Shown: positions 19,068 through 30,225 of the stretch, one piece after another
Layout: the number at the start of each line of letters is the position of its first letter
Position numbering within the stretch: position 1 is the stretch's first letter
From: Sphingomonadaceae bacterium
GTDB lineage: Bacteria; Pseudomonadota; Alphaproteobacteria; Sphingomonadales; Sphingomonadaceae
Assembly (NCBI GenBank): GCA_016000085.1
Contig: JAECRT010000010.1
Coordinates: 1 to 33,702 of the forward strand
Reading direction: 5' to 3'
DNA: 33,702 bases
Made by a program: the position numbers and the translations under genes
Notes under the pieces: model-generated
The model's input: only the letters and a program-made list of their open reading frames with translations
Database searches by the model: none
What the model was told of the DNA's origin: nothing

Positions 19068-19379
19068 TTATTCGGTGATGTTCCAGACGATGCGGGTACG
19101 CTGGTCGAGTTTGGCGATGGGGTGGCCGGCTTCATCGCGGGCGGGGCGGAAGCGCGCTTTTTCGAGGAATATCGCGCAGGCGCGCTGGTCGAGTTCGGTC
19201 GATCCGCTGGACTGGACGACGCTGCACTGTGTCACTTTGCCCGTCTTGTCGATGTCATAGGACATGACCGTCGCATGGCCGCTGCCCACGCGCGCGATGT
19301 CGGCAGCGAGCGCCAGCCCATCCGCATTGGATGGTGCGGGAGGCGCGGTTGCGGCCAGCATGGCGAGCCATGGCAGCAT
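19068..19379 (-). CDS. Small exported TonB-C-like protein
   Basis: The 103 residues have a short hydrophobic start (LPWLAMLAATAPPA) that could be a signal peptide. The rest resembles a TonB C-terminal domain: YDIDKTGKVTQCSVVQSSGSTELDQRACAIF followed by ARFRPARDEAGHPIA. It lacks the proline-rich spacer and a proper membrane anchor, so it is probably a periplasmic stand-alone domain rather than an energy transducer. Two Cys residues may pair. It starts 14 nt after the stop of the 19394-20074 gene and is likely cotranscribed with it. Confidence 0.75.
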   Translation of the reverse strand: MLPWLAMLAATAPPAPSNADGLALAADIARVGSGHATVMSYDIDKTGKVTQCSVVQSSGSTELDQRACAIFLEKARFRPARDEAGHPIAKLDQRTRIVWNITE

Positions 19380-19393
19380 CGGTCGCTACGCGC

Positions 19394-20074
19394 TCAGGCG
19401 TCGCGCTTGCGCACGTCGGCGCGGGCGGCGAGCAGATCCCACAGGCCGCGATGCTGGTTGAGGAGTTGGCGTGCGCCGAACTGGATCGCGCGGTCGACGC
19501 CGTCGTCGCCGCCGATGGCGCGGGCGACGTCGAGCGTAGCGGCGCGGTCGGGCAGGGCGCAGGGATGGGGTTCAAGGCCCGCGCGGATCGCCACCATGTC
19601 GAGGACATGGCGCACGGCGCGCCAGTCCAGCACGAGCGCCATCGCCGCGCCCATGGCGCAGCCGCGCCGATCGGACTGGGCGAGCATGTCGAGAGCGTGG
19701 CGTTGCTGGCTCACGGTGGTTTCGCAATCGGCCTGACCCGCCGTGCTGGGCGCGGGGCCGGCAGCGACGCTGACCTGCGTGAGATAGGCGCGTTCCGTGC
19801 CGAAGGCGTCGGCCGCCTCGATCAGCCAGGCGCGCGCGGCATTGTCGGCCGATCGGGTGGCGGCATGGTCGATGACGCCGGGATGACGGCCATGGAGCAG
19901 GCAGAGATAATAAGCGGCGTCCGCCAGATCGGCGAGCGAGAGCAGCGAGTCACGGGCAGCGCCGGTACTGGCGCGATGAGCATAGGGGTGGGCGGCCGTG
20001 CCGTCAGCCGCGACCAGCGCCTCCAATACGCGCGATATGTCGCCAAATTGATAGCGTGGTGCCGCTTCGCTCAT
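19394..20074 (-). CDS. Conserved protein of unknown function
   Basis: A 226-residue, Ala-rich, mostly helical soluble protein with no signal peptide or membrane segment. The segment LSLADLADAAYYLCLLHGRHPG looks like a conserved core helix, but I cannot assign a family. The ATG at 20074 (MSEAAPRY) has GAGGG 8 nt upstream and is preferred over an ATG 15 nt earlier. It is separated from rpoD by the terminator at 20159-20192, so it has its own promoter. Confidence 0.7.
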   Translation of the reverse strand: MSEAAPRYQFGDISRVLEALVAADGTAAHPYAHRASTGAARDSLLSLADLADAAYYLCLLHGRHPGVIDHAATRSADNAARAWLIEAADAFGTERAYLTQVSVAAGPAPSTAGQADCETTVSQQRHALDMLAQSDRRGCAMGAAMALVLDWRAVRHVLDMVAIRAGLEPHPCALPDRAATLDVARAIGGDDGVDRAIQFGARQLLNQHRGLWDLLAARADVRKRDA

Positions 20075-20158
20075 ACTCAAATCCCTCATTGTCCCAGTTC
20101 GCCAACGGGGCTTGGCAGGCAGCCTAGGGCGTGGGGGTAAAGGAGGGGTTTACGGCAT

Positions 20159-20192
20159 AAAAAAAGGGCGGCTCCGTGGCCGCCCTTTTTTT
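20159..20192. terminator. Bidirectional Rho-independent terminator after rpoD
   Basis: A perfect GC stem (GGGCGGC at 20166-20172 with GCCGCCC at 20179-20185, 6-nt loop) is flanked by seven A on the left and seven T on the right. On the minus strand it ends rpoD transcription 24 nt past the stop codon. It would also work in the plus direction. Confidence 0.93.
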
Positions 20193-20215
20193 GTTCGTTG
20201 CCTCTGACGCCAGAG

Positions 20216-22273
20216 TTACTGGTCGAGGAAGCTGCGCATCTTGCGGCTGCGGCTGGGGTGCTTGAGCTTGCGCAGCGCCTTTGCCTCGATCTGACGGATG
20301 CGTTCGCGGGTCACGCTGAACTGCTGGCCGACCTCTTCCAGCGTGTGATCGGTGTTCATGCCGATGCCAAAACGCATGCGCAGCACGCGTTCCTCGCGCG
20401 GGGTGAGGGAGGCAAGGACGCGGGTGACCGTTTCCTTCAGGTTCGCCTGGATCGCGGCGTCCACCGGGATGATCGCGTTCTTGTCCTCGATGAAGTCGCC
20501 CAGATGGCTGTCTTCCTCGTCGCCGATCGGCGTTTCGAGAGAGATCGGCTCCTTGGCGATCTTCATCACCTTGCGTACCTTCTCCAGCGGCATGGAGAGG
20601 CGCTCGGCCATCTCTTCCGGAGTCGGTTCGCGGCCCTGTTCGTGCAGGAACTGGCGGCTGGTGCGGACCAGCTTGTTGATCGTTTCGATCATGTGGACCG
20701 GGATACGGATGGTCCGCGCCTGATCCGCGATCGAACGGGTGATCGCCTGCCTGATCCACCAGGTCGCATAAGTGCTGAACTTGTAGCCGCGGCGATATTC
20801 GAACTTATCCACCGCCTTCATCAGGCCGATATTGCCTTCCTGAATGAGATCCAGGAATTGCAGGCCGCGATTGGTATATTTCTTGGCGATGGAGATGACG
20901 AGGCGCAGGTTGGCCTCCACCATTTCCTTCTTGGCGATGCGCGCTTCACGCTCGCCCTTTTGCACCATGTTGACGATGCGGCGGAACTCGCTGAGCGACA
21001 TGCCGGTCGCCTGCGCGATTTCGCCGATTTCATTGCGGATGCGGTCGACCGCGCAGCCTTCGGCGGCGACGAACGCCGTCCACTTCTTGTCGATGCCGCC
21101 GACCTTTTCCAGCCAGCCATCGTCCAGTTCATGGTTCACATAACGGTCGAGGAAGTCCTTGCGCGGCACTTTGTGCCGTTCGGCAAGGCGCAGCATCTGC
21201 CCGCCCAGCGCGGTCAGGCGCCGGTTATAGGCATAAAGCTGATCGACCAGATATTCGATCTTCTGCTGATGGAACTGGACGCTTTCGACTTGGGCGGTCA
21301 GGCTTTCACGCAGTTCCTGATAGTCGTCCTCATCCTTCTGGCTGAGCACTTCGCCAGTCGCCATGGCGAGCATGCGCGCTTCTTGCGCGGCGGAAAAGGC
21401 GCGGAAAATCTCCGTGATGGTCGCAAACTTCTCCAGCGCCATCGGCTTGAGCGTTTCTTCCATCTGAGCAAGCGACAGGGTGTTGTCTTCTTCCTCATCC
21501 TCTTCGACCCGGCGAGCGCGGCGTTCGGTGCCGTCCTCATCCTCGTCGGCGTCGACGGATTCTTCCTCCGGCTCTTCTTCTTCCTTGAAGCTGGGGCCAG
21601 CGGTCTTGGCGCTGATCTCGCCATCCTCGTCCTCGGCGCCTTCCTCCAGATTTTCCGGGGCAGGATCCTTGGAGAGCATCGCGTCGAGATCGAGGATCTC
21701 GCGCAGCTGCATTTCGCCATTGTTCAGCGCGGTCGACCATTCGATGATCGCGTTGAAGGTAGTCGGGCTTTCGCACAGGCCGAAGATCATCGTGTCGCGA
21801 CCGGCCTCGATCCGCTTGGCGATGGCGATTTCGCCTTCGCGGCTGAGCAGTTCGACCGCGCCCATTTCGCGCAGATACATGCGAACGGGATCGTCGGTAC
21901 GATCGACCGTTTCCTTCTTCTTTTCGGTGACGAGCTTGGGACCATCGTCATCCGATGCGTAGTCGGACGCATCGTCTTCATTGTCCTCGCGCTCGCGCTG
22001 TTCGTCGCCGTCTTCGCTGGCTTCTTCATTTTCGACGATGTTGACGCCCATGTCGTTGAGCGCGGACATGACATCCTCGATCTGCTCGGAGGACATCTGG
22101 TCCTGCGGCAGGGCGTCGTTCAGCTCGTCATAGGTGATGTAGCCACGCTTCTTGGCGCGAGCGAGCAGCTTCTTGACCGACGCTTCGTTGAGGTCGAGCA
22201 GGGGCGCATCGCCACCTTCATCACCGCCATCGCCCGCACCCGCCGCACTTTTGCTGTTCGCCTTGGTCGCCAT
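20216..22273 (-). CDS. rpoD: Primary sigma factor RpoD (sigma-70)
   Basis: Housekeeping sigma factor, 685 residues. Region 1.1 is at the N-terminus, then region 1.2 ([22 protein letters not shown]), and a long highly acidic non-conserved insert rich in Glu/Asp runs around residues 185-235. Region 2 carries [31 protein letters not shown], then region 3, and region 4.2 has the helix-turn-helix [21 protein letters not shown] lies 7 nt before the ATG. It follows dnaG by 42 bp in the macromolecular synthesis cluster and ends at the strong terminator. Confidence 0.99.
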
Positions 22274-22315
22274 GTATTCGCCTTAACTCCGTCGCCCCTG
22301 AGCGGGACGATCCAA

Positions 22316-24235
22316 TCAATCAATGTCTTGGGGCTGCGCCAGTTCCGCCAGACGGCGGTCATGTTCGGCCTTGAGTGCGCGCAAGCGTTGTTGCTCAGCG
22401 AGATTTTCTTCGCTGACATCGCTCTTGAACCGTCTCGTAGCCTCCGCCAGCGCCGTCTCCAACTCCGTCCCTTGCGCCATCACCCGAATGGCCTCCTCCA
22501 GATCACGCGAAAGGCGATCAGGGTCGGTGGTCATCCTGTGAGGGGTGAGTGTGAACGTGTCGGCCCGGAGCATCCCCTTAGCCATATTATACACTTCACC
22601 TTGCCCCAATATGGTAAGGAGGCCCTGCGTTTCAACAGTTTCTTTCTGAAAGGACGCACTAATCATCGCAGAGAGCAAACGGGCGAGCAGCGAATCGCCG
22701 ATTTGCAGCCCTGCCAGTGTCTCGCGGTGGCGGGCAATTTCATGAGGATGACGCAGCAGAGCCGCGAGAATGGCGCGTAAAAGCCGCTGTTCCATGCCGC
22801 TTTCGCCGATCGCGCGGGCTTCGTACCCCACCGGGGGCAGGGGCGCTTTCCAGTTCCCGCGCTTGTCGCGTTGCCACCGTGCGCCGGCATTGCCGCCACC
22901 GTTGCCGCTGCCCTGCGTCCGGGCAGAAGCGAAGCCGGTGTCGCGGCGGGCAAAGAACAGGGCGTCATACCGCTCGCGAAAGGCGTGGACATAATGGGCG
23001 CGGACATCGGGATGCTGGATCGAGTCGCTGAGCGCGCGCAGCCGCTGTTTGAGCGCGGCTTTCTGTTCGGGCGTATCGAGCGGGGCAGCGCCCTGTTCAT
23101 GGCTCCATAGCTGCTCGATCAACGGGCGTGCGCCGTCCAGCACCGCCGCCATCGCCGCCGGACCGCTGGCGCGCAGCAGGTCGTCGGGGTCTTGCCCCGT
23201 CGGCAGCGTGGCAAAGGCGAGGCTGTGGCCGGGGTGAAGCAGGGGCAGGGCGCGAGTGGCAGCGCGAATCGCGGCCTTTTGCCCGGCAGCGTCGCCATCG
23301 AAACACAGGATCGGCACTTCGACCATTTTCCACAGCCGTTCGATCTGATGCTCTGTCAGCGCGGTGCCGAGCGGAGCGACGGCATCGGTGAAGCCCGCCT
23401 GCGCCAGCGCGATAACGTCCATATAGCCTTCGACCACGATCACTCGCCCGGTGGAGCGGCTGGCGGGGGAGGCGCGGTCGATATTGTAGAGGGTGCGGCC
23501 CTTGTCGAACAATGGCGTGTCGGGCGAGTTGAGATATTTTGGTTCGCCCGCGCCCAGGATACGTCCGCCAAAGGCGATGGTGCGTCCGCGAATGTCGCGG
23601 ATGGGCAGCATCAGCCGGCCCCGGAAGCGGTCATAGCTGTCGCGCTTCTTCGCGTTGCCGCTGCCGCCCTCCAGCGCGTCGGGATCGATCAGCAGCCCCG
23701 CTTCGACCAGCATGGGTTCGCCGAAATCCTTGAGCGCGGCCTTCAAGCGGTTGCGCCCATCGGGGGAATAGCCAAAGCCGAAGGCGCGGCGGGTGGCGTC
23801 GCTGATGCCACGCTTAAGCAGGTAGGCGCGCGCGTCGGCGCCCTCGATCGCGTCGAGCTGCGTTTGGAAAAAGTCCTGCGCGGCGGCCATTGCGTCATGC
23901 AGCCCTTTGGCCTGTTCGGCACGCTTGGCGGCGCGCGGGTCGGCGGCGGGAACCTCCATGCCCGCCGATGCGGCCAGTTCCTTGACCGCTTCCATGAAGG
24001 GCAGGCCGCGCTGGTCGGTCATCCAGCGGATCGCATCGCCATGCGCGCCGCAGCCGAAGCAATGGTAGAAGCCCTTTTCGTCGTTGATCGTGAAGCTGGG
24101 CGTCTTTTCGTTATGGAACGGGCAGCAAGCCTTATACTCGCGGCCGGCCTTTTGCACCTTCACGCTCTTGCCGATGAGGGTCGACAGCGACGTGCGCGCG
24201 CGCAGTTCGTCGAGCCATTGCGGGGTGAGGCTCAT
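22316..24235 (-). CDS. dnaG: DNA primase DnaG
   Basis: Replication primase of 639 residues. The CHC2 zinc site is C38, H41, C59, C62. The TOPRIM core has E269 in VVEGYMDV and the D313-x-D315 pair in CFDGDA. The C-terminal about 150 residues form the DnaB-helicase-binding domain. The ATG at 24235 gives the normal family N-terminus (MSLTPQWLDELRAR). It lies directly against the end of the DUF559 element: the nuclease stop is 4 nt upstream, and the only GGAGG-like sequence (10 nt upstream) is one arm of the element's palindrome. See findings for what this may mean for primase translation. Confidence 0.99.
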   Translation of the reverse strand: MSLTPQWLDELRARTSLSTLIGKSVKVQKAGREYKACCPFHNEKTPSFTINDEKGFYHCFGCGAHGDAIRWMTDQRGLPFMEAVKELAASAGMEVPAADPRAAKRAEQAKGLHDAMAAAQDFFQTQLDAIEGADARAYLLKRGISDATRRAFGFGYSPDGRNRLKAALKDFGEPMLVEAGLLIDPDALEGGSGNAKKRDSYDRFRGRLMLPIRDIRGRTIAFGGRILGAGEPKYLNSPDTPLFDKGRTLYNIDRASPASRSTGRVIVVEGYMDVIALAQAGFTDAVAPLGTALTEHQIERLWKMVEVPILCFDGDAAGQKAAIRAATRALPLLHPGHSLAFATLPTGQDPDDLLRASGPAAMAAVLDGARPLIEQLWSHEQGAAPLDTPEQKAALKQRLRALSDSIQHPDVRAHYVHAFRERYDALFFARRDTGFASARTQGSGNGGGNAGARWQRDKRGNWKAPLPPVGYEARAIGESGMEQRLLRAILAALLRHPHEIARHRETLAGLQIGDSLLARLLSAMISASFQKETVETQGLLTILGQGEVYNMAKGMLRADTFTLTPHRMTTDPDRLSRDLEEAIRVMAQGTELETALAEATRRFKSDVSEENLAEQQRLRALKAEHDRRLAELAQPQDID

Positions 24236-24281
24236 AGCTTCAAAGCCCCTCCCTACCTAGGGAGGGGTTGGGGTGGGTAAT
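24236..24281. repeat. Left inverted repeat of the DUF559 element
   Basis: This 46-nt repeat matches the inverse of 24640-24685 at 42 of 46 positions. It contains a palindrome with 10-nt arms (24246-24255 and 24258-24267) and then, on the plus strand, a four-run G-quadruplex motif (24260-24277). It encodes the last 11 or so residues of the DUF559 protein and its stop codon, and carries the ribosome-site-like GGGAGGGG for dnaG. Confidence 0.92.
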
Positions 24282-24641
24282 CTTCTGCCTTTGAGGCAAG
24301 GCATTCGCGCGGTCTAGGATGACAGTCAGCACGCCATCCAGATTGTCACGAATATCGGCATTGGAGAAACGCAAAACCACATAGCCTTGATGGGCAAGAT
24401 CGAAGTCGCGATCCCGATCCTTGATTGGGTCATGGCGGTCATCGTCAATTTCGATGATCAGTCCCACGGATGGACAGAGAAAGTCGCAGATGTATGGTTC
24501 GATCACGGTCTGTCGGCGAAATTTGAAACCGCCCAGTTGGGAAGCGCGCAGAGCACTCCAGAGGCGACGTTCATAGTCCGTCGGTTCGCGCCGCATGTTT
24601 CGGGCATATAAGCCAAGTTTAGCATCAATGCGTAGCGCCAT
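24240..24641 (-). CDS. DUF559 (Vsr/PD-(D/E)XK-like) endonuclease-domain protein
   Basis: Predicted nuclease-fold protein of 133 residues. Family landmarks are PTDYERRLW with E24, the LGGFKFRRQ segment (36-44), D53 in ICDF, E64 and D66 in LIIEID, H70, and YVVLRFSN (87-94). These fit the restriction-endonuclease-like active site of the Vsr-related DUF559 family; the usual GGQH is DDRH here. Biochemical roles of the family are poorly known. The ATG at 24641 overlaps the inner edge of the right inverted repeat, and the tail THPNPSLGREGL is encoded by the left repeat. The stop lies 4 nt before dnaG. An in-frame ATG at 24689 outside the element would add repeat-encoded residues and lacks a spaced ribosome site. 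Confidence 0.88.
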   Translation of the reverse strand: MALRIDAKLGLYARNMRREPTDYERRLWSALRASQLGGFKFRRQTVIEPYICDFLCPSVGLIIEIDDDRHDPIKDRDRDFDLAHQGYVVLRFSNADIRDNLDGVLTVILDRANALPQRQKITHPNPSLGREGL

Positions 24642-24680
24642 GACCCACCCCAACCCCTCCCTTGGAAGGGAGGGGCTTTG
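24240..24680 (-). mobile_element. Putative DUF559 mobile element with inverted repeats and target duplication
   Basis: A 441-bp insert sits exactly between the yqeY stop and the dnaG start. It has inverted terminal repeats (ends CAAAG/CTTTG), one internal gene, and a flanking direct repeat TAGCT (24235-24239 and 24681-24685). Removing the insert and one TAGCT gives a 12-nt yqeY-dnaG gap with CAGGA 7 nt before the dnaG ATG, a sensible ancestral junction. Base composition inside looks less GC-rich than in dnaG. No known transposase is encoded; the DUF559 nuclease is the only candidate mobility protein. Confidence 0.75.
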
Positions 24681-24685
24681 TAGCT
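24640..24685. repeat. Right inverted repeat of the DUF559 element
   Basis: Inverse copy of 24236-24281. Its palindrome arms are 24654-24663 and 24666-24675, and its four-run G motif is on the minus strand (24661-24644), ending 2 nt before the DUF559 start codon. The two inner stem positions differ from the left copy in a compensatory way (A/T pair against T/A pair), so pairing is kept. Confidence 0.92.
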
Positions 24686-24693
24686 GCATCCTG

Positions 24694-25146
24694 TTAGCTC
24701 AGCGCCGCTTTCACCAGCCCACTCGCCTTGCTCATGTCGATCACGGTGCCGTGGCGTTCCTTCAAGACGGCCATGACCTTGCCCATGTCCTTCAGACTCG
24801 CCGCGCCCACCTCTGCCTTGATGCCTTCGATCGCGGCTGCCGTTTCTGCCTCGCTCAACTGGGTGGGGAGGAAGCTCTGGATCACGTCGAGTTCGACCTG
24901 TTCCTTGGCCGCCAGTTCGTCGCGGCCGCCGGTCGTGAACATTTCGATCGATTCGCGGCGCTGCTTGACCATCTTTTGCAGCACTTCGACCACGATGGCG
25001 TTATCATCCGGCACGGTGGTGGCGGTGCGCAGTTCGATGTCGCGGTCCTTGAGCTTGGCGAGAATGAGGCGCACGGCGGCTAGGCGCTCCTTGTCGCCAG
25101 CCTTCATGGCGGTGACCTGGGCACTCTTTAGCTGTTCGCGAATCAT
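24694..25146 (-). CDS. GatB/YqeY domain protein
   Basis: This 150-residue protein consists of a YqeY domain, related to the tail of the GatB amidotransferase subunit that contacts tRNA. The bacterial stand-alone form has no settled function. Family features include the N-terminal MIREQLKSAQVTAMKAGDKERLAAVRLIL, the QRRESIEMF segment and the C-terminal DMGKVMAVLKERH. The ATG at 25146 fits the family; AGGA lies 11 nt upstream. It is the first gene of the yqeY-dnaG-rpoD run and ends 8 nt before the right repeat of the DUF559 element. It is divergent from carA. Confidence 0.95.
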   Translation of the reverse strand: MIREQLKSAQVTAMKAGDKERLAAVRLILAKLKDRDIELRTATTVPDDNAIVVEVLQKMVKQRRESIEMFTTGGRDELAAKEQVELDVIQSFLPTQLSEAETAAAIEGIKAEVGAASLKDMGKVMAVLKERHGTVIDMSKASGLVKAALS

Positions 25147-26466: not shown

Positions 26467-26831
26467 GCGTCAAGCTGCCCCCCGTCGACGAAGCGCGGCT
26501 GGCCGCCGAGTGGGAAGCCGACAAGGAAGTGCTCGCCAATCTTGCCGCCAATGGCGACAAGGCGCTGACCCCGCGGCCCGTGGACGTCAGCTTTCGGGGC
26601 AATGACAAGGATTTCGACCGCGTGCTGGAAATCGCCAGCCAGTTCGGCATGGTCGAACTAGACCGTGAAGAGGATGAGGATGGCGATCTGTTCCTGTTCC
26701 TCGAATGCGAGCAGGCGGTGGACGAAGCATCGATCCGCGCGCTGACGAAGACATGCCTCCAGATCGAAATCCTGTGCGGCGTCGAATATGACGGCTGGGG
26801 TTGCGAGGCCCGGACGGGGGGCGTGCATTGA
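26463..26831 (+). CDS. RraB-family (RNase E inhibitor-like) protein
   Basis: A 122-residue acidic protein resembling the RraB family, whose E. coli member binds RNase E and modulates RNA decay. Shared features are the N-terminal WEADKEVLANLAANGDKALTPRPVDVSF, an alpha/beta core with a run of Asp/Glu (EEDEDGD), and the closing GVEYDGWGCEA typical of the family. It is translationally coupled to carA (ATGA overlap) and sits 58 bp before carB, so it is embedded in the carbamoyl-phosphate synthase operon. Whether it acts on RNase E in this organism is not shown by the sequence. Confidence 0.8.
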   Translation: MSVKLPPVDEARLAAEWEADKEVLANLAANGDKALTPRPVDVSFRGNDKDFDRVLEIASQFGMVELDREEDEDGDLFLFLECEQAVDEASIRALTKTCLQIEILCGVEYDGWGCEARTGGVH

Positions 26832-26889
26832 ACGCCATTATGCAAATAGCGCGCGCCAGCGCCCACAACCATAAACCAGAGGCCAAATA

Positions 26890-29800
26890 ATGCCCAAACG
26901 CACCGACATCTCGTCCATCCTCATCATCGGCGCTGGCCCGATCATCATCGGTCAGGCGTGCGAGTTCGATTATTCGGGCACGCAGGCGGTGAAGGCGCTC
27001 AAGGAAGAGGGCTATCGCATCATCTTGGTCAATTCCAACCCGGCCACGATCATGACCGACCCGGAATTTGCCGACGCGACCTATATCGAGCCGATCACGC
27101 CCGAAATCGTGGCGAAGATCATCGAGAAGGAACGGCCGGACGCGGTGCTGCCCACGATGGGCGGGCAGACGGCGCTCAACACCGCGCTGGCGTTGTTCAA
27201 CGACGGCACGCTGGAAAAGTTCGGCGTCCAGATGATCGGTGCGGACGCCGAGGCGATCGACAAGGCGGAGGACCGGATCAAGTTCCGCGACGCGATGGAC
27301 AAGATCGGCCTGGAATCGGCGCGTTCGCGCATTGCGCACACGATGGAAGAGGCGATGGAGGCGTTGGAAGTGACCGGCCTGCCGTCGATCATCCGGCCCA
27401 GCTTCACCATGGGCGGCACGGGCGGGGGCATCGCCTATAATCGCGACGAGTTCGTGAACATCGTGCGCGGCGGGCTGGATGCGTCGCCCACGACCGAGGT
27501 GCTGATCGAGGAATCGCTGCTCGGCTGGAAGGAATATGAGATGGAGGTTGTCCGCGACAAGGCGGACAATTGCATCATCATCTGTTCGATCGAAAATATC
27601 GATCCGATGGGCGTCCATACCGGCGACAGCATTACCGTCGCGCCCGCATTGACGCTGACCGACAAGGAATATCAGATCATGCGGAACGCATCGATCGCGG
27701 TATTGCGGGAAATCGGCGTCGAAACAGGTGGTTCCAACGTACAGTTCGCGGTCAATCCCAAGGACGGCCGCCTGATCGTGATCGAGATGAACCCGCGCGT
27801 GTCGCGATCTTCGGCGCTGGCGTCGAAGGCGACCGGTTTCCCGATCGCCAAGGTCGCGGCGAAGCTGGCCGTGGGCTATACGCTCGACGAGATCGAGAAT
27901 GACATTACCGGGGCGACCCCGGCATCGTTCGAGCCCACCATCGATTATGTCGTGACGAAGATCCCGCGGTTCGCCTTTGAAAAGTTCAAGGGCGCCGAAC
28001 CGTTGCTCGGAACGGCCATGAAGTCCGTCGGCGAAGTCATGGCAATCGGGCGCAATATCCATGAATCGATGCAGAAGGCGCTGCGCGGTCTGGAAACTGG
28101 GCTAAGCGGCTTCAATCAGGTCGACCATCTGGTCGGCGCGCCCAAGGACGACATCATTGCGGCGCTGGCGCAGCCCACGCCCGACCGGCTGCTGGTCGCG
28201 GCGCAGGCTCTGCGCGAAGGGCTGAGCGTTGCCGAAATCCACGCTATCGCCAAGTTCGATCCCTGGTTCCTGGAGCGGATCAAGGAGATTGTGGACGCCG
28301 AGGCAGAGGTGCTGGACAACGGCCTGCCGCAGGATGCCGAGGGCATGCGTCGCCTGAAATCCATGGGCTTTTCCGACAAGCGGCTGGCGTGGCTGGCGCT
28401 CAAGTCCGCCAATCTGCGCGGCATGGAGCGGGGCATTGCGCGTGGGTCGGGCCTGATCCACGAAGCGGTCAAGGCGATGACTGGCGGCGTGACCGAGGAA
28501 GAGGTGCGCGCGCTGCGCCATAAGCTGAACGTGCGCCCGGTGTTCAAGCGGATCGACACGTGCGCCGCCGAGTTCGAGGCGAAGACGCCTTATATGTATT
28601 CGACCTATGAAGCCCCGATCTTCGGCGAAGCCGAGAATGAGGCGATGCCCAGCGCGGCGAAGAAGGTCGTGATCCTGGGCGGTGGTCCGAACCGGATCGG
28701 GCAGGGGATCGAGTTCGATTATTGCTGCGTCCATGCCTGCTTCGCGCTGAGCGAGGCGGGGTATGAGACGATCATGGTCAATTGTAATCCGGAAACGGTA
28801 TCGACCGACTATGACACGTCGGATCGCCTCTATTTCGAGCCGCTGACGGCCGAAGATGTGCTGGAAATCCTGCACGTCGAAATGTCGCGGGGGACGCTGG
28901 CGGGCGTGCTGGTGCAGTTTGGCGGGCAGACGCCGCTCAAGCTGGCGCAGGCGCTGGAGGATGCGGGCGTGCCTATTTTGGGCACTTCGCCTGACGCCAT
29001 TGACCTTGCCGAAGATCGCGAGCGCTTCGCGGCGTTGATCGACAAGCTCAAGCTGCGCCAGCCCGACAATGGCATTGCGCGCAGCCGGGAAGAGGCGATC
29101 GCGGTCGCCAACCGCATCGGTTACCCGGTGCTGATGCGTCCATCCTATGTGCTGGGTGGCCGGGCGATGGAAATCGTCGACGGTCAGGCGCAGCTGGAAG
29201 AATATATCACGACCGCCGTGCAGGTGTCGGGCGACTCGCCGGTGTTGATCGACCAGTATCTGCGCGACGCGATCGAGGTGGACGTCGATGCGCTGTGCGA
29301 TGGCGAGGATGTCGTCGTCGCAGGCGTGTTGCAGCATATCGAGGAAGCGGGCGTCCATTCGGGCGACAGCGCCTGTTCGCTGCCCCCCTACAGTCTGTCG
29401 GACGATATCATCGCGGAGATCGAGCGGCAGACCGAGGTGCTCGCCCATGCGCTGTCGGTGCGCGGCCTGATGAACATCCAGTTCGCGGTCAAGGACGGCA
29501 TCGTCTATCTGATCGAAGTCAACCCGCGCGCCAGCCGGACCGTGCCCTTCGTCGCCAAGGCGATCGGCACGCCCATCGCCAAGATCGCGGCTCGCGTGAT
29601 GGCGGGCGAAATGATCCGCGACCTGCCCAAAATCGACCGCAATGCGATCAATCATGTGGCGGTCAAGGAAGCGGTGTTCCCGTTCGGGCGCTTCCCCGGT
29701 GTTGACCCTGTTCTTTCACCGGAAATGAAGAGCACCGGCGAAGTCATGGGAATCGATAGCGATTTCGCGACAGCCTTTGCCAAGGCGCAGATCGGCGCGG

Positions 29801-30225
29801 GCACCATATTGCCCACCAGCGGCACGGTGTTCATCTCGCTCAAGGACAGCGACAAGCCGGTCATCCTGCCTGCCGCGCGCAAGCTGGATGCGATGGGCTT
29901 CAAGATCATCGCGACCGGCGGCACCGCCCGCTATCTGGCCGAAAACGGGGTTGCGGTGGAAACCGTCAACAAGGTCGCCGAAGGGCGCCCGCACATCGTC
30001 GACCGGATCACCGATGGCGATGTGGCGCTGATCTTCAACACCACCGAAGGGTGGCAGTCGTTGAAGGACAGCAAGGCGATCCGCACCAGCGCACTGCGCG
30101 GCAAGGTGGCGAGCTTCACTACGGCGGCTGGCAGCGTCGCTGCGGCCGATGCAATCGAGGCTCTGAGGGGACATGCCCTTGAAGTACGGTCGCTCCAGTC
30201 CTATTATCCCCTGTCGCACGCCTGA
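26890..30225 (+). CDS. carB: Carbamoyl-phosphate synthase large subunit
   Basis: Large synthetase subunit of 1111 residues, slightly longer than the E. coli protein. It has the two homologous ATP-grasp halves (about 1-400 and 560-945), each starting with a glycine-rich nucleotide fold ([19 protein letters not shown] and [18 protein letters not shown]). The oligomerisation domain lies between them and a C-terminal MGS-type allosteric domain after about 950 ([14 protein letters not shown]). GAGG lies 7 nt before the ATG. With carA it makes carbamoyl phosphate for pyrimidine and arginine synthesis; greA follows. Confidence 0.99.

Follow-up and report, generated by a model that had tools for sequence, protein, structure and literature searches.

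In REPtrons, the gene of an enzyme, the REP-associated tyrosine transposase (RAYT, or TnpAREP), lies between inverted short palindromes of the repetitive extragenic palindromic (REP) or REPIN type; gene-less pairs and single repeats are dispersed besides, and the repeat type follows the enzyme (PMC3733652, PMC8266576, in the text available). The G/C-rich BoxC/PIT/TM repeats, known since the 1990s and described by Holder et al. (2015) as intrastrand triplex motifs, consist of a hairpin, a short linker and a mirror-image G-tail, occur as single units and inverted pairs in many genomes, and are linked to genome instability; in the available text they are reported without a mobility gene, and their authors found no genetic-mobility activity near them (PMC4666352). 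Here I describe a locus that resembles both. It lies in a stretch of 33,702 nucleotides from a Sphingomonadaceae bacterium (assembly GCA_016000085.1, contig JAECRT010000010.1; hereafter the window), where a DUF559 nuclease gene stands between two inverted hairpin repeats at the junction of dnaG and yqeY. I consider it probable that this locus is one copy of a widespread two-part system, made up of a lone Vsr/EDxHD-type nuclease and its cognate hairpin/mirror-tail repeat, and organised much like a REPtron.

The likeness to REPtrons concerns the flanking dispersed palindromes and a repeat type that follows the enzyme; the enzyme itself, however, has the PD-(D/E)XK fold and not that of an HUH transposase, with no known strand-transfer chemistry, and its repeats carry a mirror tail and show no enrichment of the GTAG tag. 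Terminal inverted repeats are also found in insertion sequences and miniature inverted-repeat transposable elements (MITEs), but the target-site duplication of these elements is not supported here. Because it departs from REPtrons in enzyme and tag and from insertion sequences in target duplication, the system appears to be of a new kind. Unlike the BoxC/PIT/TM repeats as reported, its repeats are tied to DUF559, ycjD of Escherichia coli K-12 included. The triplex-type repeat itself is thus already known, and what seems to be new is its systematic tie to DUF559: in the open-licence literature, in the text available, I found no paper tying DUF559, ycjD or COG2852 to repeats, and such reports may exist elsewhere.

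DUF559 genes and their inverted repeats

The sequence-only reading of the window described two inverted repeats of 46 nt with a single DUF559 gene filling the space between them, and both observations hold. The arms at 24236-24281 and 24640-24685 are complementary at 42 of 46 positions (91%) and spaced by 358 nt, and the interior is taken up by one minus-strand gene (PF04480, E 5e-31; 107.2 bits, curated cut-off 20.6) whose protein matches DUF559 only in Pfam. The ATG at 24641 on the minus strand is a likelier start than the one in the list of open reading frames (ORFs) and abuts the right-hand repeat at its tail; the frame ends at 24240 inside the left repeat, which encodes the final residues. 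The features are as follows.

24236..24281, plus strand: left terminal repeat unit on the dnaG side, with outer AGCTTCAAAG, then the hairpin, a TT linker and a gene-facing G-tail
24246..24267, plus strand: palindrome (stem-loop) of the left unit, CCCCTCCC-TACCTA-GGGAGGGG
24270..24277, plus strand: putative third-strand tail of the left unit, GGGGTGGG after the TT linker, from mirror scoring
24240..24641, minus strand: coding sequence of DUF559, a Vsr/EDxHD-like PD-(D/E)XK nuclease (Pfam E 5e-31, translation, AlphaFold2, Foldseek)
24640..24685, minus strand: right terminal repeat unit on the yqeY side, an inverted copy of the left unit
24654..24675, minus strand: palindrome (stem-loop) of the right unit, from the palindrome pattern search
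24644..24651, minus strand: putative third-strand tail of the right unit, GGGGTGGG on the minus strand, adjoining the DUF559 start codon
22316..24235, minus strand: dnaG (DNA primase), left neighbour, given as context (Pfam Zn_ribbon_DnaG and DNAG_N)
24694..25146, minus strand: yqeY, right neighbour, given as context (Pfam YqeY, E 3.8e-42)

The repeat is not unique to this locus, as palindromes of the form CCCCTCCC-N-GGGAGGGG are found at eight places, spread over six contigs, in the 3.23-Mb assembly, and the reversed pattern nowhere. By eye, contig C37 holds an inverted pair without a gene, its tails facing inward, and contig C85 an apparent second pair; three further palindrome places are apparently tail-less. 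DUF559 is matched only once in the assembly, at a completeness of 83%.

That DUF559 genes lie between inverted copies, as proposed from the window, proved to be usual. DUF559 is present in 172 of 199 genomes of the family, from which I took 110 loci besides the window's own, 30 returned by the scan and 80 picked from its best matches with preference for multi-copy genomes. Flanking inverted repeats (score of at least 16) were found at 95 of the 109 testable family loci, against 1/107 and 0/109 at control positions moved by 1 kb. The best 80 of 569 loci from a scan of named genomes, which include records of Xanthomonas, Lysobacter, Pseudoxanthomonas, Rhizobium, delta-proteobacteria and Gastranaerophilales, gave 55/71 testable loci against 0/75, 0/76, 0/72 and 0/74 in controls; the match at locus L174 is a run of N, without which the count is 54/70. 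Among these loci, some records from deeper groups are without a clear repeat, such as Doudnabacteria (L212) and Dehalococcoidales (L225).

A second detector, which scores C/T-rich hairpins alone, was applied to 188 non-redundant DUF559 loci. Hairpins stand on both sides in 138 of the 179 testable loci, on one side in 38 and on neither in 3, against both sides in 0/179 and 0/182 and one side in 7/179 and 2/182 at shifted positions. For loci drawn from across the phylum by their similarity to E. coli YcjD, the counts are 9/27 (both sides), 17/27 (one side) and 1/27 (none), with one-sided hits in 4/25 and 5/27 controls. Five DUF559 records from Neisseria gonorrhoeae, Synechocystis, Deinococcus, Sinorhizobium and Azospirillum, chosen for diversity among 35 plasmid-collection matches, all show units on both sides by eye. 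Three or more bacterial phyla show the pairing, and E. coli has a one-sided form of it.

Two of these five records have unusual layouts. In Neisseria gonorrhoeae (L320, match 1501-1797), DUF559 lies between direct, not inverted, copies of about 100 bp that hold a triplex-type repeat. In Sinorhizobium meliloti pSymB (L323), a gene-less inverted pair stands on one side of DUF559 and a largely matching pair in the opposite orientation on the other, adjoined by an IS4-type transposase gene. Plasmid-borne mobility was considered and rejected: a relative of the window protein (E <=1e-5) occurs in 35 of 72,556 plasmid records, and 29 of these 35 are classed as non-mobilizable. PADLOC gave no match to an anti-phage defence system.

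Across the 199 family genomes, the number of repeats tracks DUF559 better than it tracks RAYT. With a cut at 1e-28, set after viewing the match list, the median number of palindromes is 1 in genomes without DUF559 (n=27), 0 where the best E lies above the cut (n=59) and 12 where it lies at or below it (n=113). Within genera, the strong-DUF559 group has more palindromes in 23 cases, fewer in 2 and equal numbers in 4, and the rank correlation between DUF559 count and palindrome count, which needs no cut, is 0.58. All 45 genomes with at least 20 palindromes carry DUF559, and 15 of these 45 carry a Y1 transposase.

Alternatively, a RAYT or another transposase could move the repeats, with DUF559 a passenger captured between two of them. 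Gene-less inverted pairs exist, RAYT-mobilised REPs are organised alike (PMC3733652, PMC8266576, in the text available), and strong-DUF559 genomes hold more palindromes with Y1 (median 34, n=23) than without (10, n=90); without strong DUF559, the medians differ little, at 1.5 with Y1 (n=8) and 0.5 without (n=78). However, Y1 is carried by 31 of the 199 genomes, including the mentioned third of the repeat-rich ones, and Y1_Tnp was not found in the window's assembly at its 83% completeness. The RAYT tag is likewise not enriched: 11 of 330 units have GTAG or its complement no more than 8 nt from the stem, where shuffling gives 29.0 on average. Moreover, a single capture cannot yield the same layout in many protein clades with matching repeat types. 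I therefore regard a passenger gene as very improbable.

In E. coli K-12, ycjD is annotated as DUF559 and lies between fabI and sapF. A BoxC repeat stands about 165 bp past its 3' end, a degenerate BoxC overlaps that end, and the 5' side has a different palindrome. Among 119 genomes of an enterobacteria-like family, identified by YcjD similarity alone, 13 have a DUF559 match below 1e-15 (a cut set after viewing the match list), and all 13 loci (L264-L276) have a palindrome of the BoxC type within about 110 bp 3' of the gene. Among the 60 genomes that reach 4 Mb, at least five BoxC matches are present in 12 of the 13 DUF559 carriers and in 5 of the other 47 (Fisher 5e-8); in the 59 genomes below that size, neither DUF559 nor BoxC is matched. 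One genome with nine BoxC repeats (G647) has a weak DUF559 match only. Two of the 13 genes have an internal TGA and a third is split in two pieces.

Repeat architecture and the nuclease

The units share one order, that is a C-arm, a loop, a G-arm, a short linker or second small hairpin, and a G-rich tail. The tail mostly faces the gene, as a full mirror match within 34 nt is found inward only in 221 units, outward only in 29, on both sides in 4 and on neither in 71. It is the mirror image of the G-arm in which A is kept or replaced by T, as in GGGAGGGG/GGGGTGGG, GAGGAGGGG/GGGGTGGTG and GGGGGAAGG/GGATGGGGG; in the window (L001), where T stands in place of A, 9/9 mirror positions agree on both sides. 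While 100 symmetric units cannot discriminate a mirror from a direct copy, the 224 units with asymmetric stems give a full mirror fit in 148 cases and a full direct copy in 39, and the mirror beats the direct copy 126 to 19, with 79 ties. Shuffled tails give a mean of 1.9 full mirror fits (maximum 6, 200 shuffles). The outward side used as a control gives 26/225 full matches, part of which are genuine outward tails.

Judged from the order of bases, the mirror tail follows the pairing rule of an antiparallel purine-motif intrastrand triplex. A hairpin is followed by a tail able to lie antiparallel on the purine strand of the stem, so that the repeat appears to be of the known BoxC/PIT/TM kind, which the sequence-only reading had not recognised. 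The E. coli BoxC strand forms a triplex in vitro, and an in vivo footprint gave no support for stable triplexes, according to the available text of PMC4666352. CGTC-tagged REPs, likewise without a known transposase in the text available (PMC3733652), were considered as possible DUF559 substrates. A stand-in palindrome for that type, ATTCCC..GGGAAT, was found within 300 bp of 0 of 222 DUF559 loci.

The G-tracts might instead serve a G-quadruplex, since 239 of 330 units have four or more GGG runs in the G-arm and the 34 nt inward of it. I consider this improbable, because a quadruplex imposes no mirror covariation, whereas asymmetric stems and tails covary as mirror images even where the G-runs are broken, as in GGGAGAAGG with GGATGAGGG, and the E. 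coli form folds as a triplex in vitro (PMC4666352, in the text available).

I give a very small probability to the palindromes doing no more than terminate or stabilise the mRNA of a small gene. G/C-rich hairpins do adjoin the gene, one of them right at the start codon, but palindromes reach 173 per genome and far outnumber the DUF559 genes (14 at most), the mirror tail is needless for a terminator, and the E. coli form has neither promoter nor terminator activity according to earlier work cited in PMC4666352, in the text available. A regulatory side-effect of the repeats is possible.

The AlphaFold2 model of the window protein has a mean predicted local distance difference test (pLDDT) score of 87.0. 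In a Foldseek search, the model best matches the DUF559 protein of Neisseria (3hrl, E 1.2e-8), followed by the catalytic domain of the homing endonuclease I-Bth0305I (3r3p, E 1.1e-3, template modelling score 0.76 of target, root-mean-square deviation 2.2), then the restriction enzymes PvuRts1I and AbaSI, and more weakly E. coli Vsr (E 0.13). A profile search agrees, with I-Bth0305I at E 0.0054 and Vsr only at E 1. The predicted fold is thus that of an EDxHD homing-endonuclease catalytic domain, I-Bth0305I being the closest solved fold after the Neisseria protein. In contrast to EDxHD homing endonucleases, no intron or intein was seen, and the presumed target is a dispersed repeat, not one conserved gene site. 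As candidates for the residues of the EDxHD motif, E40, D69, D82 and H86 are invariant in 31 sequences and D91 nearly so; the aligned crystal chain has A opposite D69 and W opposite H86.

The ratio of nonsynonymous to synonymous substitution rates (dN/dS) is 0.05-0.24 for the pairs taken as orthologous (L027/L040, L032/L057, L035/L043, L017/L038, L168/L202 and L178/L229), and the highest value among the 18 of 20 pairs that gave one, paralogous copies included, is 0.44, which indicates that DUF559 is under purifying selection. A 2005 paper placed YcjD among the PD-(D/E)XK proteins and noted a profile match to Vsr (PMC1189080, in the text available). Caulobacter VsrA, a DUF559 family member, is reported to trigger the SOS response and DNA damage upon loss of a cytosine methyltransferase. 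Unlike the system described here, it has been studied, and modelled, as a mismatch-repair enzyme tied to that methyltransferase; the main text of the paper, as available, has no words beginning with palindrom or transpos (PMC12907096).

Inheritance, copies and genomic sites

When each protein is compared with its nearest relative in another genome and at another site, repeat sharing is 0.482, against 0.339 in permutations (standard deviation 0.020, 300 permutations, n=88). Less related DUF559 genes in one genome share repeats no more than the background does, at 0.347 (42 pairs) against 0.327. On the protein tree of 124 rows, 21 changes account for the stem classes, where shuffling demands 46.3 on average. 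When each genomic site contributes a single element, 16-18 changes suffice against about 22, and over 20 draws a count as low as the observed one arose in 0-2 of the 60 shuffles. The repeat type accordingly follows the protein clade, and the cognate signal stems from nearer relatives.

Near-identical copies are found at different sites. The elements L062 and L065, and likewise L096 and L098, are about 96% identical over some 500 bp at unrelated sites of one genome, and the homology between L062 and L065 extends some tens of bases beyond the palindromes. In genome G168, the three related elements L060, L062 and L065 also agree over tens of bases beyond their palindromes, which looks as though they had gone into copies of another dispersed repeat. 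Six gene-less pairs were read in genome G155, all with tails inward, and the spacing is 53-82 bp in five and 157 bp in the sixth.

Empty sites were sought in the genus of G123 and in that of G168, with one useful comparison; in the others that were read, the sequence after the site differs. At this site in G168, the sister species G700 holds a gene-less inverted pair of another type instead of the element, and G107 has neither the element nor a pair, the sequence beyond the site also being different. The fabI-sapF region of E. coli is covered to at least 80% at one place in 3362 of 5426 genomes; two genomes lacking it have other genes there and are uninformative as empty sites.

The junction of yqeY and dnaG was surveyed in the best 30 of 195 genomes with YqeY. 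Five hold an element, one a gene-less pair and one, by eye, a single decayed palindrome; 17 have gaps of 5-86 bp and 6 have gaps of 332-1234 bp. Among the matches listed, nine other loci share flanks with the window locus, one of them over one flank only, which makes ten of the 111 loci. The window copy is therefore unlikely to be a recent insertion, since about ten genera of the family have the nuclease next to dnaG, and it is probably old. The proteins at this site need 7 tree changes (9 rows) against a shuffled mean of 8.8, with 6 of 500 shuffles as low, in a tree so poorly resolved that descent and repeated occupation are inseparable.

These observations bear on a housekeeping role, in which DUF559 would be a repair nuclease that clears or resolves the structures formed by triplex repeats, the repeats themselves spreading otherwise, for instance by replication slippage, and both parties tolerating each other. 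The purifying selection, the site common to about ten genera among the matches listed, and the SOS link and mismatch-repair model of Caulobacter VsrA (PMC12907096, in the text available) are all in keeping with such a role. However, it leaves unexplained that the gene is framed by inverted copies, that the repeat type follows the protein clade and not the genome, and that near-identical gene-plus-repeat units stand at unrelated sites. I consider it unlikely, though it deserves more weight than the other alternatives.

In the window itself, several long ORFs run opposite rpoD, dnaG and ORF 26890-30225 (window positions 19331-22780 and 26587-29655); by eye these look like antisense frames of a G+C-rich genome rather than genes.

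A proposed mechanism and its meaning

For the two-part system I propose the following. The full element consists of a repeat, the gene and an inverted repeat, and the same genomes hold gene-less inverted pairs, similar to MITEs or REPINs, and single repeats. The nuclease would recognise its own type of repeat, probably once replication or repair has bared a strand and let it fold, and would nick or cut there. Recombination repair through matching repeats could then copy the gene with its repeats, or the repeats alone, to another place. Such copying would resemble that of a homing endonuclease, with dispersed repeats as the target.

Several observations weigh against this proposal. Recognition, cleavage, movement and repair-driven copying are steps that I infer. 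The sequence-only reading took a TAGCT at both outer edges for a 5-bp target duplication, and this was not borne out over 145 elements. The apparent duplication arises largely because AGCT belongs to the inverted repeat and is self-complementary, and the left T (24235) lies opposite the opening base of the dnaG start codon. Direct repeats of 5 bp adjoining the stem (offset tolerance 1) are found in 12 of the 145 elements against a shuffled mean of 10.2, and those of 6 bp (tolerance 3) in 10 against a mean of 5.1 and a shuffled maximum of 12. No clean empty site with defined ends was found, the sole informative sister site holding a different gene-less pair. The same reading had held that a shared nuclease-dnaG arrangement across distant genera would speak against mobility; about ten genera of the family, among the matches listed, have the element in this one position between dnaG and yqeY, and many copies may be old residents.

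The association has its own irregularities. The family loci are the stronger matches and not a random draw, and when all pairs are taken together, protein identity shows no correlation with repeat similarity (Spearman 0.008). As to numbers, the searched palindrome pattern occurs at most once in 15 of the 113 strong-DUF559 genomes and at least 10 times in 4 of the 86 genomes without a strong match, one of which (G135) lacks any DUF559. At the 13 enterobacterial loci the repeats stand on the 3' side only, as in K-12; BoxC repeats occur without a DUF559 match in G392 (65), G651 (30), G638 and G640 (9 each), and G641 has DUF559 but no BoxC match. The abundance of BoxC in G392 and G651 could reflect a lost enzyme, an unusual enzyme or another spreading agent.

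The layout that had been proposed from the window, a REP/RAYT-like arrangement with a different nuclease, therefore stands as far as the framing, the copy number and the clade-matched repeat type are concerned, and is weakened by the lack of support for a target duplication and by the recurrence at the dnaG site. Going beyond the two-part system, the balance is even, in my judgement, on whether it represents a new class of element that is, or once was, mobile. In this class the nuclease would read the folded, three-stranded end of its own repeat, and BoxC/PIT/TM repeats across all bacteria would derive from it, those of K-12 included, where ycjD would encode the resident enzyme.

The tie to DUF559 offers a candidate enzyme for the BoxC/PIT/TM repeats and, conversely, a likely substrate for a large and little-studied family of nucleases. 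Both sides of it can be tested in E. coli K-12 by a single gene deletion. If it is true that the enzyme spreads the repeats, the system would be a second, independently evolved counterpart of the RAYT function, achieved without a transposase.

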